From assembly GCF_000313135.1 (NCBI RefSeq), contig NW_004457246.1, forward strand, positions 7,836 through 45,049: a stretch of DNA of 37,214 nt. Reading direction: 5' to 3'. The translations under genes and the position numbers were made by a program. Below are positions 6,141 to 13,911 of this stretch, in pieces (position 1 is the first letter of the stretch; every line of letters starts with the position of its first letter). Source of the stretch: Acanthamoeba castellanii str. Neff. Taxonomy: Eukaryota; Discosea; Longamoebia; Acanthamoebidae. The notes under the pieces were generated by a model. It did no database searches. It saw nothing but the letters and a program-made list of their open reading frames with translations, and had not been told where the DNA came from.

Positions 6141-8211
6141 CTAGTCGAACCAGAAGCTGATGGAAAAGCTGACGGAGAGGGAGCGCACAAAGTGCCAGTA
6201 GTGCGGCGGGAGGTAGAGCATCTCCCCGGCCTCCAGCACCAGCTCCTCGCCCTGGGCCTGCGCGAACAGCGGGAACCGCTCCAGGTCGGGCCTTTCGACA
6301 TCGATCTGGCCCCCCCCCAAAGGCAATGTAACCGATGTCAGCCTATCAGATAGTCGCACGGCAATGGCCGAATGCAGGCTCGCCGAGCAAAAACGCGGCC
6401 GAAGAAGAAGCCAAACAGGGTACCTGCGAGGTGTTCTTCAGCGTCTTCCCGGTGTGGGGGTAGAGGAAGGGCGTGTTGTGGGGCGAGTAGAGGCGTATTC
6501 GCTTGCGGCCCACGACTTGCGCCAGGAGGTTGTGGTACGGGTCCTGCGCGTTGTGTTTGTTTTGCCAGGCGAATGAGTGCGACTCAGGTTGGTGCCAAGG
6601 CACTGAGGAAGAGCGGCCCAACATAGCGGGAGAGAAGGGGAGGGCACCTCATGCAGAGGAGACACGGTGCCCTTCGGCCCGAACCAGGCCTGAATCTTGA
6701 TGTCCTCCCCTTGTCCAAGGCCGCAGTAGTCTGGAAGTCCAAAGTCCCTTTGCAGCTCTGGCACCAGCTCGAAAAGCTCAATCTGTAGGTACCCAACACG
6801 ACACACGCACCACCGCACACGCACACGCACACGCACACGCACACGCAAACGACAGTGCTCGTCAGACAGACGCTGACGAGGACCTCCGCGGTCTTTGCCA
6901 GGACGTGCCTGCGCCAGGTAGCCTCGGTTCGTTGCAGGCACTTGTGAGTTGGTGACATGATTGTCGATGAATTGAGCGAACGTCATCAGCTTCTGGCTCC
7001 ACTCGGGATGGAGGTAGTGCGTTCCCACTTCCACCGGCACTGTGCGCGGACCCGCGATCGACTGCAAACATAATAAAGATAAGGAAACAAGTAAGCAAGT
7101 AAGTATCAGTGGGAGTCACAAGTAAAGTGGTGTCGCACTCACCTTGAGGTAGTCCAAATTGGCCCATGCTCGCTCGTTCATGGCCGGCCAACCGTCCATG
7201 CCGCCTGGGCGATTGGAATGTGAACACTCTCAGCGCTGATGCCGTCACGACGGTGGGCATCGTGTAGAGCGGAATGGTGTGTGGTACCGGTGATGATGAC
7301 GGGGACCCCCTTTTGCATGTAGTCGCGTAGGAACCGCTCCATTGAGGGCCGCCGTATTCGCTCCACTGGTTGGAGGTCAAGTTTGAAACGCTTGCCTCCT
7401 TCCTCTTCACCCTCCTCTTCATCTTCGTCTTCGTTTTCCTCCCCAACTTGAGTCGGCTGCGTATCAGTGGCCTTCCGCTCGCTCGTTGTGGGACCTTGCG
7501 GTGGTGACGATCGGCCGTCGGCGCCGTGCGACGGCGCCATCGTCATCTGCTCGCGCCACTTGGTTTGGCAGTGGCCGATGAGCTCGTGGAGCTGGTCCCA
7601 CAGCTCCCGCGGCATCGCGTGCGGTCCGCCGCCCATTAACAGCGCCAAGTCTAACGCACCCAGCGCCTGCAAGTGTTGACCGGCCGATGAGAATGCGCAC
7701 CAGCTGCAATGCCAAGAGAGGCGAGCAGCGAGCAGCGAGCAGCGTACGCACTTTGTCGAACTGCTCCTCCCGCACGAGTCCGAGAGCTTTCACGAGCGAC
7801 GCATGGGCGTAGAGCTGCCGCCAGACCAGGGGTACGTCCTTCCAGTGCCCCTCGTGGAGCTTGTGCGACCGAAACGCCACGCGAGGGTCAGCAAGCGCGA
7901 AGTAGTCCGTAGCAGGTGGTTTGGGGGGAGGGAACACCGCACCTTCTCCCAAGCGAGTTGAGACAGGTCGAGCGCGAGAGACTGCGCTTCGCCCGCGCGA
8001 CCATGACGCAGTGCATCGCAAGCTGAACACAGGCGCACGTAGCTCACTCCATCTCCACACGCCGCCAAATCTGCCGAATGTAAATTGAATGTAAGATGTG
8101 GTGCCAGGAGACTGGCGCACCAGGGGAGCTGTGGGTACCTGCCTTAAACTGTGCAGAAGGAGTTGCAGCAGCGAAAATAGCGGTTGGCTGTGGTAGTGCC
8201 ACTCCTTCCAT
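6141..8211 (-). CDS. KDM8: JmjC-domain 2-oxoglutarate/Fe(II) oxygenase, KDM8/JMJD5 type
   Basis: Nine exons (8211-8139, 8070-7943, 7859-7752, 7666-7288, 7204-7143, 7061-6909, 6782-6648, 6543-6424, 6305-6141) add to 1323 bases, 440 aa, close to the human protein of about 416 aa. The N-terminal helical region matches the family ([23 protein letters not shown]). A linker rich in Glu and Asp with GKRFKL follows, then the cupin. Iron ligands are His345 and Asp347 in SPLHEDPYHN and His424 in [10 protein letters not shown]. Other family motifs are [41 protein letters not shown] and LKNTSQ. The C-terminus ends SFSISFWFD as in JMJD5. Known members are nuclear Fe(II)/2OG enzymes reported as arginyl hydroxylases or histone-tail peptidases. 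The substrate here cannot be told. The intron with donor at 6908 starts with GC. The start codon is only 94 bases from the tRNA-bearing inverted repeat. Confidence 0.9.
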
Positions 8212-8313
8212 TGAATGTAAATGGTGGGAAGGCAAGCCCGAGACAGAGAAAAATCGACGTGGCCATCTGAAAGGGGCGACACTCAGCGAGAGGAGAACAA
8301 GTGAACCACACAA

Positions 8314-8409
8314 CCGGCTGTGGCGCAATTGGTAGCGCGGTAGACTGTAGTCTTGATGCTCACCTCGGTAGTCATCTATCGGTTCCTGGTTCGAGTCCGG
8401 GCAGCCGGA
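8314..8409 (+). tRNA. tRNA-Tyr (GTA) with 23-nt intron
   Basis: The acceptor stem CCGGCTG pairs with CAGCCGG, with discriminator A at 8409. The D arm is GCGC-AATTGGTA-GCGC. The anticodon loop reads CTGTAG-A with anticodon GTA. The T arm is CCTGG-TTCGAGT-CCGGG. An intron (8351-8373) sits one base 3' of the anticodon, the canonical position and usual in eukaryotic tRNA-Tyr. A T6 run (8414-8419) follows as terminator. It is identical to the copy at 11214-11309. Confidence 0.95.
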
Positions 8410-8413
8410 ATTC

Positions 8414-8419
8414 TTTTTT
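8414..8419 (+). terminator. Pol III terminator of left tRNA-Tyr
   Basis: A run of six T begins five bases after the tRNA 3' end. Confidence 0.8.
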
Positions 8420-8726
8420 ACTCTTCTTGTTGCTTGTTGCTGCCCACAGCCTAATGTCCACACATGCCCCTTTTGCTGGACAGCATTGGTGTGGCATTGC
8501 AGGAAAGTCAACAAGTACAAACTTTTATGGCAGTAATACCTTTGTTGCAGGCACAAAATGTCAGCCAGTACCATTCCCAGAATGGCCCACATATTCCTTC
8601 CCAGCTTGCAGGCAAGAACAATGAATAGGGAGAAAAAGGAAATAACATATGGTTGTCTCTGCCAGCAAGAAAAAAAATGTGCCATTGTTCCAACCAATCA
8701 TTCTCATGGTGCCTTTACCAACAGCC

Positions 8727-8730
8727 AAAA
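8727..8730 (-). terminator. Pol III terminator of tRNA-Ser
   Basis: A TTTT run on the minus strand begins about eight bases after the tRNA-Ser 3' end, the minimal pol III stop. Confidence 0.6.
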
Positions 8731-8738
8731 GGATAGGT

Positions 8739-8820
8739 CGACGACGGCAGGATTTGAACCTGCGCGGGGAGACCCCAGTAGATTTCTAGTCTACCGCCTT
8801 AACCACTCGGCCACGTCGTC
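8739..8820 (-). tRNA. tRNA-Ser (AGA)
   Basis: Read on the minus strand, GACGACG pairs with CGTCGTC and the discriminator is G. The A box TGGCCGAGTGG is typical of tRNA-Ser. The anticodon is AGA within GACTAGAAATC. A long variable arm (TGGGGTCTCCCCGCG) confirms a type II tRNA. The B box is GGTTCAAATCC. There is no intron, and length is 82 nt. This gene keeps its CpGs while flanking DNA has lost them, apart from a few in its 5' flank (8829-8882). Confidence 0.95.
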
Positions 8821-9352
8821 TTCTTATACCGAGGCGATTCCGATGGACACTCAGACGCAAAATGCCAGCTGGAGAGCTGCCTCGTGCTCTTTTCCCCTGT
8901 ATGTAATGTTGCTTTTTGGACAAACAGCAGGCAAACATCTGAGTTAGGAACAAGGAGTAGGCTTTGTGGTCCTGTCCCACATTCTGACTGCCCAGGCTGC
9001 TGGCAAGCCTGGGGTGCCAGGCTTTATTCTACCAAGTTGCCCTCCCCCCAAAACCCTCAATGGAGGGCTGGGAGCAACACCCAGGATTTTGGCAAGGCCA
9101 TCCTCCCCACCATGTACCTTTCAGCCTCCTGCCCTGCAGGACCCCTTGTGCCCTTTGGCAAGAATAAATAAAATAAAGATAAAAAGAAAATTGTGTCATG
9201 TCTGCTCACATGATGCTCACATGATGCTCACACAGCTCTCTACACCATCTTCTGGCCAACAAGCTTGTACATCACCACAACAAGAAAATAAAGAAAAACA
9301 TGCTAATGTCCCCAAGCCTCCTTCTCCCCCCCATCCCTTCCTATTACACATG

Positions 9353-9432
9353 TTGCATCAATATTCTATTGCTTATGCCTACAATGAGCACTTTGGATTA
9401 TTGCTTGAAAGCCTGTATTGCATCAATATTCT
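9353..9432. repeat. Short direct repeat TTGCATCAATATTCT
   Basis: The 15-base word occurs at 9353-9367 and 9418-9432, 65 bases apart, in CpG-free AT-rich sequence. A smaller triplicate of CTCACATGATG lies near 9205-9232. These look like remnants of local duplication. Confidence 0.6.
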
Positions 9433-9667
9433 GTCACCCTACATGATGAGATAATGACACTTTGACAGGCCACATTGTGCATGGGATTTCACACAGCAGA
9501 AAATGAAATTGGAGTCAGACAACCACATTTTATCTCATCACATGTGCATAATCACATGAATATTCCTACAAATAAGCTCATTATTCCATCATGTATGCAC
9601 ACTCTATGGAATATTCACATTAAAGCACTTTATTTCACTGTTTCCATGCAGAAAGAGTGGCATTTTG

Positions 9668-9765
9668 GTGCTGGGTGGGCAGGCTGCAGTGGGTGGGTGG
9701 ACAGGCAGGCAGGGTGGTGGGTGGGCAGGCATGTGGGTAGATAGGGTGCAGGCTGGCAGGTGGGC
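9668..9765 (+). repeat. G-rich GGGTGGGCAGGC imperfect array
   Basis: About 100 bases are built from GGGTGGG, GGCAGGC and GGTGGGT words with many runs of two or three G, strongly G-skewed on the plus strand. It contains no CpG. Such sequence could form G-quadruplexes; this is inferred from composition only. Confidence 0.75.
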
Positions 9766-10388
9766 ATTTTGGATACCAAAACCATTGTGTAGATGAGAGC
9801 ACATATGTGTATGGCATCTCTTTTAGGTTTTTTCTGTTCAGCCAAAAGTGGTTTTCCACTACCAAAACTCATTTGCCCAAGATAAAATCACAAACAAAAT
9901 CACTTACACCCTCACACCCAACTTGGGGAATTTGATTCTGGTGTGGGTCAAGCACTGGGTCCAATTTTATCCTCTTGGTACATCTCTGTGGAGTTCCCTT
10001 GTGAGTTGCATGTCTTCAAGAGACCACTTCCACATGCTTCAGTTGTTGGTGGCCTGAGGGAGATTCTGGGATCCACCACAACTGTGAATTGAGACTGGGG
10101 GATTGGCTTACTGGAAAGACCTGTGTCAGCGCTGCACCCTGGGAGGTATAATTATGCTGCGTCATGAAGGAGGCCATGGATGCACCCCAAGACCACAACA
10201 AGGACTAGTGAAGGGTGTTCTCAATGCATGCACTGAACTTCATTCTTCACATTTGTGGTGAATTGGAGGACTATTCCTGAAGTTAAAATTCCACTCCATT
10301 CCACACTGATAAAATCACTTTAAACTACACATTCCAAGTTATTATGAAATCTTTTTCATCTCAAGTCCCTCAATATCACTTATCAGCA

Positions 10389-10640
10389 GCGGTATAGCAT
10401 GTCAATATCACACATGCAGATCCAAATCTTCAAAACTGCAAATCGAAAATGTCAAATCTCACACACAACAAAATTTCCACAGTCATTTTTGACCTCTAAT
10501 TTCAAATGAGTGCAAGTTAACAGTGGTCTAGCATGTCAATATTGAAGACCCATAAATCAAAAATGTCAAATCTCTGATGATTTTAGCAAAACACAATTTC
10601 CACCTCTCATTTCACATGCATGCAAGTTCATTGCTATTGT
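10389..10640. repeat. Diverged direct repeat, about 114-134 bp unit, two copies
   Basis: TAGCATGTCAATAT occurs at 10395-10408 and 10529-10542. AAATGTCAAATCTC occurs at 10447-10460 and 10561-10574. An ACAA..TTTCCAC word and an ATTTCA..TGCAAGTT word follow in the same order in both units. Spacing varies from 114 to 134, so the units have diverged by indels as well as substitutions. Confidence 0.75.
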
Positions 10641-11203
10641 TAATTGCAAGTCCTTAATGTCCTCCATACCTCCATTGTGCTTCTCAACTTCCCTAAATTG
10701 ATCAATAATCCTCAGAGGACTGCACCCCACCAACTGCAACTGTCAGCCTGTATACTCCATGAAGTGGAGTTGGGGGTCCAGCTGAGCCAAGGCAAGGGGT
10801 AGGGCACTGTGGAACTGGAGGCAAGCTGGCACATCATGCAGGCAAGATGCTGATGTAGGCAACAGATCTCTGTGTATCATGTCAGGTGCCCTGCAGCTTG
10901 GTCTTTGTGCATGTCCTAACACCCACCATGAGATCTGACAACAATCCCAGAAGGAGGAGGGGAAACTGTTGTGCCCACTTTTTCCTCTCTGGCACCTTGG
11001 CCAGCCTGTAGTTTGAGGCTGAAGGCATGAATTATCCACCATCAATGAGACCTGGCAGCTTCATGGCACAGTTCCTCCATGCAGTGGAGGCAGCCAAGTG
11101 GAGCTACAACAAAGATACTCTTGCAATGCCACACCAATGCTGTCCAGCAAAAGGGGCATGTGTGGACATTAGGCTGTGGGCAGCAACAAGCAACAAGAAG
11201 AGT

Positions 11204-11209
11204 AAAAAA
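11204..11209 (-). terminator. Pol III terminator of right tRNA-Tyr
   Basis: On the minus strand a T6 run follows the tRNA 3' end by five bases, a copy of the left one. Confidence 0.8.
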
Positions 11210-11213
11210 GAAT

Positions 11214-11309
11214 TCCGGCTGCCCGGACTCGAACCAGGAACCGATAGATGACTACCGAGGTGAGCATCAAGACTACAGTCTACCGCGCTACCAATTGCGC
11301 CACAGCCGG
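11214..11309 (-). tRNA. tRNA-Tyr (GTA) with 23-nt intron, second copy
   Basis: Identical to 8314-8409 in opposite orientation, including the intron (11250-11272) and both exons. The two genes converge toward the enclosed block, so each transcribes inward. Confidence 0.95.
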
Positions 11310-11440
11310 TTGTGTGGTCGGCTTGTCCTTACGTGGTCATGTGGTGCTCTCCAAAGTTGTGTTTTTATTACTTTGTTTATTTATTTGTTTGCTGTGATTA
11401 TAATTGTTTGAGGTGAGTGCAGCAGGCCATCTTCATCTCC

Positions 11441-13911
11441 ATGCGAAACAATTGGAAGCGTGGGTATACAGGATACCTAGCACTTGCCTAGAACAGCTAC
11501 TTACATTCTTTAACCACAAATTTCCCATACTAATCTCTTCAATCGCCCTCGATCTTGATTTTTGGCAGGCCCATCCTGTACGCTGGCAGCCAACGCCCAG
11601 GACCCAGCGGACAGTCTTCGGGCTCACTTCTCTTCGCCTTGCCTTCTACCGCCTCTTCTTCTTCTTCTCCGCTGTCCTGTCTCTTGCCTCGCCGCCTTCA
11701 CTCTCCCTCCCATCTCGCCCAGAATCAACCACATGTGCGCTCCAATAGGCCATCACCATCACCAAAGCCAGCGCCCAAGCCGTCTTCATCCTCATCTTCA
11801 TCATCTGCAGCCGCGGCCCCCTACGTCCACGATGAGCGGCCATCAACGAACACAAGGCGAGGCGAGCGCAACCCCAACCACCACCGCCGCCGCACCACCG
11901 CCTCAGCCCAGCACGCGGCCTCGGCCTCGGTCTCTGCGCGCTCGACAGACAGCGCTTCGGTCGAGCAGCTGAAGGAGACCTTCAACCGACTGCGGCAGCG
12001 CTTGTCGGCCGATGCCGGCGGCAGCGGCAAGCAGCAGCCGTGGCTGCTGTGGGACGTGGTGGCGGCCATCAAGCAGCTGGGCGGGGCCATGCAGCGGCTC
12101 AAGGTGCGGAGCGGCAAGCTGGGCGGGATCGAGCTCGACGTCGATGTCTTCCCGCTCGTGTGGCGCCTCGAGATCGACCAACTGCACCGCTTGAACGGCC
12201 TCATGAGCGCCCTGTCCACCCTGCCCGGCGCCGGCCGCGTCATGCAGGACATCATCGAGAACCTCTACGCCCAGGCACGCCACCACCGCACACGCCGCAC
12301 ACGCCGCACATATCGACTGACGCGAACGTGTGTGGACATGATGTCGTGTCGTGTGTGTCGTGTGTGTCGTGTGTGTCGTGCAGAACTCGCCGGTGAAGCC
12401 CGACGTGCGGGTGTACGGCAAGCTGATCGCCAGGTACGCGCGCAGCCGGCAGACGGAGCAGGCCTTTGCGGCGCTGGACCTGATGCGGGCGCACGGCCTG
12501 CACCCCAACCTGCGGGTCATCACCGCGCTCCTGCCGGTCTGCACCATGGCCACGGTCGAGCCCGTGTTCGACCAAATCCGCCGCCACGACCTCCGGCCCG
12601 ACCGCGTGTTCCTCGTGGGCACGCTCGAGCTCTACGCGCGCAGCCACGCGACCGACAAGCTGCTCGAGCTGCTGCGGGTCATGGAGCCCGAGTTTAAGGT
12701 GGCGCCCGACGTGCACATCTTTAATGTGGCGCTGCAGGGCTGCGTCAACGCGGAGGACCTCGCCGCCGGCTGGCGCGTGCGCGAAATGATGCGCGAGTTT
12801 AAGGTGGCGCCCGATCGCGCGTCGGTCGTGCAGCTGATCGCGCTCTGTAGCCAGAAGCAGCTGCGGTGGGACCAGCAGCGCCAGGCGTGGGGCCGCGCCG
12901 AGCGCCAGCGGCCGCACCCCTACGCGCGGCCCGACCCGCAGCAGGAGCTGATGGACCGCTGGCTGGGCGACGTCTTTGCCGACATGCGGCGGCACCGCAT
13001 CGTCCCCGACCAGACCATCTTCACCGCCCTCATGGCTTCAACTCCCCCGACATCGAGCGCGCCTGGGGCCTCTTCCAGATCATGCTCGACGCCGTACCTC
13101 ACCTCCCCCCCTCGTGTTCGGTGTGTGCGGTCGTGTGCGTGCGGCTGTGTGCGTGCGTGCGTGTGCGCGTGCGGCGTGTGCGGTACTGAGAACACAGCGT
13201 CATCAACAGGGCGTGGAGGCGAACGAGGTGGCGTACAATGTGTTGCTCAAGCGGTGCCGCGACCTGGCCGAGTGCGATCGCGGGCTGGCGCTGTGGGAGA
13301 CCATGCGGGCCAGCGGCGTGCCGCCCAGCGCCACCACCTTCGCGCTGCTGCTCCAGCTGTGCGGCCGCATGCCCGACGCGGTCGAGGGCGCGGCACGCGC
13401 GCAGCGGGTGTGGGACTCGATGGTGCACGAGCACGGGCGGCAGCCGGACCACGGCCACCTCGGCGCGCTGCTCTACGCGTGCGGCCGCACCGGCGACGTC
13501 GACGCCGCCCTGGCCCTGCTCGACGACGTCAAGCTCCGGTACGGCGTAGCGCCCATCGAAGACACCTTCACCTCGCTCCTCGACGGGCTCACCGCCCACA
13601 ACAACAACAACTCCAACGACAACGACGACGATAACGAAGTCGACGGTGATGGTGAAAGCGAGGAGCGCGATCGACAGTACGAGGCGTGCCTGCGGGTGAT
13701 GCGGCGGGCCGAGGCCGAGGGGGTCACGCCGCGCATGCAGAAGGTCAAGTACACGTTCAAGATGAGCATGCGCCGGGACCGGTTCGACGAGGCCGAGTGG
13801 CTGCTCGGGTGCATGCGCCGCAAGGGCCTCCCCGACGCGGCCCACCAGTCCTTCGCCGCCAGCCTCGCCTCGGCCAAGGCCGCCGCCTCCGTCGGTCTCG
13901 TTACCATGTAG
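11441..13911 (+). CDS. Pentatricopeptide-repeat protein, probably mitochondrial, with a 1-nt frameshift
   Basis: Secure exons are 11569-12274, 12384-13093 and 13210-13911. No ATG lies in frame in the first of these. A small first exon at 11441-11463 (MRNNWKRG) joins it in correct phase through a GTATAC donor and gives an Arg/Ser-rich, acid-poor N-terminus like a mitochondrial presequence. That start is tentative. The body carries several 35-residue PPR-like helix pairs (for example DVRVYGKLIARYARSRQTEQ; VEANEVAYNVLLKRC), which in known families bind organellar RNA one base per repeat. The frame breaks near 13033: FTALM must continue as GFNSPDIERAWGLF one frame over, so one base is missing. 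The second exon is 710 rather than 711 bases, consistent with this. Its first intron starts with GC (12275). An acidic Asn/Asp insert lies at 13597-13665. Confidence 0.8.

Follow-up and report, generated by a model that had tools for sequence, protein, structure and literature searches.

In the genome of Acanthamoeba castellanii str. Neff, a block of DNA almost without CpG and enclosed by two inverted tRNA genes is very probably burnt-out 5mCG heterochromatin that is edged by tRNA genes and consists at least partly of decayed transposon DNA. The window, that is, the whole stretch of 37,214 nucleotides analysed, has a CpG observed/expected ratio of 0.70-1.28 in 500-bp bins outside positions 8001-11500, while positions 8885-11215 hold 4 CpG against 118.4 expected from base composition. 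The absence of CpG that the original prediction had judged by eye was borne out on recounting, with zero CpG across 8884-10129, zero across 10446-11213 and four in 10130-10445 (at 10130, 10160, 10390 and 10444). The Poisson chance of finding none is 5e-29 for 8885-10129 and 3e-18 for 10446-11215. Within 8885-11215, TG (212 vs 131 expected) and CA (257 vs 158) are both in about 1.6-fold excess, as had been proposed, while GT (114 vs 131) and AC (138 vs 158) fall short of expectation and TA shows a depletion (90 vs 175). The GC content of the block is 45%, compared with 58% for the window, a value in keeping with the 56.7-58.5% printed for Acanthamoeba. A profilin frame of the genome is identical over 125 residues to profilin II of A. 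castellanii (PDB 1f2k), and an algal origin was rejected, a search for chlorophyll-binding protein families having given no hit. Dense CpG is confined to the two tRNA-Tyr genes, the tRNA-Ser gene and the 63 bp upstream of the latter, so that the earlier view of tRNA genes as the sole CpG-rich islands is correct for the three genes themselves and has to be widened by the five CpG of this upstream stretch. Repeat loci on other contigs share with the block an almost complete erasure of CpG, and the window otherwise looks normal.

Table 1. Coordinates of the features of the CpG-poor block (positions in the window).
Feature	Position	Strand	Evidence or remark
Inverted repeat, left arm (tRNA-Tyr and 95 bp of CpG-free 3' flank)	8294..8504	+	98% complementary to 11119-11329 over 211 nt
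tRNA-Tyr gene with intron, CpG retained	8314..8409	+	Rfam RF00005, 54.6 bits
CpG-free stretch, 331 bp	8408..8738	.	Count
tRNA-Ser (AGA) gene within block, CpG retained	8739..8820	-	ARAGORN; Rfam 64 bits
tRNA-Ser 5' flank, five CpG kept (8830, 8835, 8841, 8856, 8883)	8821..8884	-	
CpG-free stretch, 1245 bp	8885..10129	.	0 vs 65.1 expected
Two pieces (9266-9381, 9422-9791) common to CpG-poor C72 locus L020	9266..9791	.	91% and 78% identity
Decayed TIR-transposon fragment; TIR-like end 10491-10518, 4 mismatches	10227..10518	-	46 of 57 block matches
CpG-free stretch, 770 bp	10446..11215	.	0 vs 40.3 expected
Inverted repeat, right arm	11119..11329	-	Pairs with 8294..8504
Second tRNA-Tyr gene, inverted, CpG retained	11214..11309	-	Rfam RF00005

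The block extends from the 3' end of one tRNA-Tyr gene to the 3' end of an identical, inverted one (Table 1), the Tyr (GTA) isotype being assigned by eye, where the intron mode of ARAGORN gives tRNA-Ile. Within the left arm, positions 8305-8501 (197 bp) show no mismatch to the partner arm and take in 92 bp of the CpG-free flank; the flank was therefore without CpG by the time of the last copying or conversion of the arms. A search of the genome (38.4 Mb, 250 contigs) gave 10 matches to the arm, and the whole flank was covered only in the window's own two. The tRNA-Ser gene together with its 3' flank (8649-8823) matches C218 at 92%. In the genome search and among the loci compared, no relative was found for 8505-8648, 8824-9265, 9792-10226 and 10634-11118, and a repeat origin is therefore established for parts of the block. 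Of ten open reading frames from the window scanned against Pfam, four carry domains of the PPR, ABC transporter or laminin-G-like kind.

The repeat nature of the block is clearest at 10227-10518, on which 46 of the 57 genome matches to the block fall (best candidates scored, counted as pieces and not whole copies). A longer copy of the same family has 75 genome matches, counted in the same way, and other copies carry a 28-bp terminal inverted repeat (TIR), with a 4-bp target duplication in both copies checked. A LINE origin of the shared repeat was considered and rejected upon the finding of these terminal inverted repeats. Domain searches with five open reading frames from CpG-poor loci gave DUF7869 in two and nothing in three; the two matches (E ~5e-15) lie in frames of L021 and L024, within CpG-poor repeat loci, and these frames are possibly part of a transposon gene. 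Long CpG-free runs recur in repeat loci on many contigs, and the first supposition that the loss is peculiar to the block is not supported.

Comparison between copies shows that CpG has decayed independently to TG and CA. The 300-bp fragment was aligned in 22 further copies, of which 20 are distinct because overlap caused two places to be counted twice. CpG survives there in only five alignment columns, each with TG or CA in the majority of the remaining copies. In 42 pairwise alignments of repeat loci, at least 600 bp long and partly overlapping, TG-CA differences number 364 vs 47 GT-AC differences; CG was kept 76 times and changed to TG or CA 109 times, while GC was kept 1226 times and changed to GT or AC 166 times. 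From 11 copies of the TIR element, 72 ancestral CpG sites were inferred, a column qualifying if it held TG and CA together or one CG or more; this rule omits any CpG turned into the same product in every copy. The cells at these sites comprise 481 TG or CA, 39 CG and 11 others, and 66 of the 72 sites hold the two products, TG and CA, compared with 5 of 101 GpC-type sites under the same rule.

The rate of this decay is high. Of 55 pairs, 43 could be compared over 400 bases or more; among these, non-CpG sites differ at 907 of 36963 bases (2.45%), and a star tree puts the decay of a CpG pair at about 211 times the rate at which a base changes (about 106 times per base). In these 43 pairs, same-product cells (760) exceed different-product cells (586); some decay is therefore shared, and the 211-fold figure is somewhat high. 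A reckoning by hand from two close pairs (L018-L021 and L018-L107), leaving out same-product sites, gave about 70-90-fold per CpG pair. These figures put the decay in this family, per CpG, at roughly 70-200 times the rate of change of other bases. In mammals, the corresponding ratio is near ten. A second group of copies (L014, L016, L008, L010 and L011) has few TG-CA differences and keeps a CGCG-rich stretch; not every copy, therefore, decayed in place from a CpG-rich start. This stretch (L014:732-783 and its equivalents in L016, L008, L010 and L011) is almost intact in an otherwise CpG-poor transposon, as if protected or recently replaced.

Reverse-transcriptase relics also show the pattern that decay of CGA to TGA predicts, namely a predominance of TGA among their stops. 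In-frame stops are present in 11 of the 31 reverse-transcriptase matches listed, with 23 TGA, 2 TAA and 0 TAG; six of the TGA sit in three matches below the family cut-off, and 17 TGA and 2 TAA are left without those. Ten of the 31 pieces were examined for CpG: four intact ones have an observed/expected ratio of 0.47-1.04, and six with at least two TGA have 0.00-0.38, both at 0.00 being matches below the cut-off.

The two products are not distributed evenly over the strands. The TG:CA ratio is 12:42 in L107 and 14:29 in L109, compared with 33:12 in L019 and 41:24 in L023, and strand use is heterogeneous among the copies (chi-square 47.8, 10 df, p 7e-7). The same product also tends to recur in runs slightly longer than chance would give (mean z -0.89, 11 copies). 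This heterogeneity counts against simple spontaneous deamination, which does not predict such differences between copies; they could be explained by replication direction or by a strand-specific mutator.

Three other explanations of the CpG loss were weighed against past methylation. An active mutation process resembling RIP, in which an enzyme deaminates the CpG of repeats quickly and in one-strand tracts instead of through the slow deamination of 5mC, would account for the very fast decay relative to other sites, the strand use that differs between copies and the slightly lengthened one-product runs. It is nevertheless quite improbable, in that classical RIP prefers CpA and makes TA, while the block has TA depleted and CA in excess. 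Moreover, the neighbouring copies L107 and L109 (C207, at about 310 and 305 kb, ~4 kb apart) are biased in the same direction, suggesting a regional cause such as replication direction, and the reverse-transcriptase relics with partial CpG loss (observed/expected 0.23-0.38) look as they would under gradual decay.

Alternatively, a master copy already poor in CpG, under selection to escape methylation, might have been the source of the repeat, and the deserts would then be inherited and not made in place. The copies L014, L016, L011 and L008, which share most TG/CA states and differ mainly at non-CpG sites, are what such a source would leave. As a general account it is very unlikely, since it is contradicted for the L018 group by the sites holding both products, and the different-product cells, being of the same order as the same-product ones, need independent decay after copying. 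DNA of foreign origin or odd composition, lacking CpG from the start, would agree with the low GC content of the block and with its long parts for which no relative was found. This origin is hardly credible: it is contradicted for the shared repeat fragment inside the block, whose homologous columns hold CG, TG and CA, and the excess is specific to TG and CA, with none in GT and AC.

The loss of CpG through deamination of methylated cytosine, as originally proposed, is strongly supported by the comparison of copies, by DNMT1-like exons in the genome and by the published 5mCG in repeats. A profile search of the genome for PF00145 gave six matches on four contigs, and the DNMT genes that were looked for are represented by DNMT1-like exons identified by sequence match, including an exon on C155 whose best PDB match is DNMT1. 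The best PDB match of another cytosine methylase, L001 (C215:64255-65683), is the bacterial HaeIII methylase and not DNMT1; a pithovirus-like DNMT in the Neff strain is mentioned in the accessible part of one report (PMC12344493). In addition, three of five SRA-domain matches lie above the cut-off. According to the same accessible text, methylation in A. castellanii occurs in CpG context, amounts to 1.3% overall and lies on repeats and silent genes together with H3K9me1/3 (PMC12344493). CpG methylation of its repeats is thus already known and the mark is not new, although the original prediction had treated it as little described in this organism. Viral insertions have likewise been described as hypermethylated in A. 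castellanii, in the accessible part of a second report (PMC12210455). The former report, as far as its accessible text goes, finds younger LINE and LTR copies methylated and DNA transposons overall without such enrichment (PMC12344493); set beside a shared repeat with terminal inverted repeats, this counts against the reading of past methylation. Present methylation of the block, which had also been suggested, is not supported, as 4 CpG in 2.3 kb leave almost nothing to methylate, and for the same reason nanopore or bisulfite calling at the block cannot decide whether it is methylated.

The association of tRNA genes with CpG deserts extends beyond the window. Deserts were here CpG-free stretches of 250 bp or more, with runs of N treated as breaks, and the sample consisted of 63 scored hits from 805 first-look candidates and hence of a part of the tRNA genes. 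Such a desert lies within 150 bp of 16 of the 63 hits, on 7 of 35 contigs; tRNA hits cluster, and these 16 are therefore not independent. The other 47 adjoin no desert. As a control, 3-kb loci were placed arbitrarily on large contigs; two that consisted entirely of N were dropped, and in the remaining 18, 1.6% of 53979 bases lie within 150 bp of a desert and one locus has a desert. Ten tRNA genes with seven anticodons occupy 10.6 kb at C200:181400-192049 (L104, L043, L078 and L044), where many CpG-free stretches lie between tRNA genes and about 1 kb reads N.

Inside the tRNA genes, CpG is kept. The four copies of tRNA-Ser (AGA) compared are identical with nine CpG each, and where an isoacceptor has three or more copies, those of equal length show no decay of CpG to TG or CA inside desert tRNAs; selection alone could explain this absence. 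The sole CpG difference among equal-length copies is in one not classed as desert-adjacent, and where predicted ends differ, the comparison was of the number of CpG only, which agreed. Within 60 bp of 40 desert-adjacent tRNA genes, there are 62 CpG in 2163 bases on the 5' side vs 40 in 2291 bases on the 3' side. For flanks that are CpG-poor at 61-300 bp, the counts are 20 CpG in 1200 bases 5' (20 sides) and 9 in 1500 bases 3' (25 sides; Fisher p 0.008). Selecting flanks in this way is in itself biased towards CpG close to the gene, and sides that belong to a single locus depend on each other. Beside tRNA-free deserts, the observed/expected ratio is 0.083. Protection of the 5' side of tRNA genes from CpG loss is suggestive only.

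Inverted pairs of tRNA genes recur as well. Among the loci compared, 11 pairs of neighbouring same-isoacceptor genes at most 3 kb apart were found at 9 places, 8 convergent, 3 divergent and none direct, with a desert in the gap of 9. Three of these pairs (the window, C75 and C9-Gln) come from loci chosen through the block or its repeat; without them, 8 pairs are left, 6 convergent and 2 divergent, and 6 have a desert. Many tRNA loci were covered for about 0.6 kb per side, so that more distant partners could be missed. The sole direct close pair seen consists of two tRNA-Tyr matches at C93:537716-539402, which lie 1.4 kb apart and share the minus strand; further tRNA-Tyr copies lie within 50 kb of it. 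Deletion of direct pairs, conversion between the arms or a barrier function may explain why inverted pairs persist.

Past methylation of this very block is the best reading of these observations. The block would once have been CpG-methylated, with DNMT1-type maintenance and repressive chromatin, and long methylation would have led to deamination of nearly every methylated C to T on either strand, leaving TG or CA. Selection would have kept CpG in the tRNA genes, and bound RNA polymerase III machinery perhaps keeps the tRNA gene and its upstream 50 bp unmethylated, which might also protect the CpG of tRNA genes. The position of the tRNA genes at the edges would fit a possible barrier role. A bolder version, in which small heterochromatin islands between inverted copies of one tRNA gene combine tRNA barriers with a CpG-directed hypermutation that is far faster than ordinary deamination and erases transposons, is unlikely. 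If it were true, silencing would in the end have to be maintained with no CpG left to methylate. The islands bracketed by tRNA genes also offer a compact natural system for testing tRNA barriers in an amoeba. A literature search conducted largely outside subscription journals met CpG deserts bracketed by tRNA genes in none of the best-matching titles or abstracts.

In the accessible parts of the two methylation studies, Sarre 2025 (PMC12344493) and Blais 2025 (PMC12210455), the picture agrees with the present reading in the CpG context, the presence of DNMT1 and the association with repeats and heterochromatin. As described there, both measure the CpG that remains, and a block with almost none would be nearly invisible to such studies; methylomes score surviving CpG only, and the longest-silenced repeats may therefore drop out of view. 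Fungal transposons, for example those of Microbotryum, likewise show CpG-to-TpG change in repeats, attributed to methylation in the accessible part of that report (PMC4352252); unlike that case, as described there, the host here is an amoebozoan, the loss is near-complete and decay was compared between copies. The tRNA-targeting retrotransposons of Dictyostelium likewise place mobile DNA beside tRNA genes in an amoebozoan, whereas the repeat shared by the block has a 28-bp TIR and a 4-bp target duplication, features that set it apart from those elements as portrayed in the accessible text (PMC5006619). Moreover, the tRNA barriers of a fission yeast centromere (PMC2040200) similarly edge repressive repeats with tRNA genes; barrier activity was demonstrated there by experiment, while in Acanthamoeba it is the arrangement alone that is seen.
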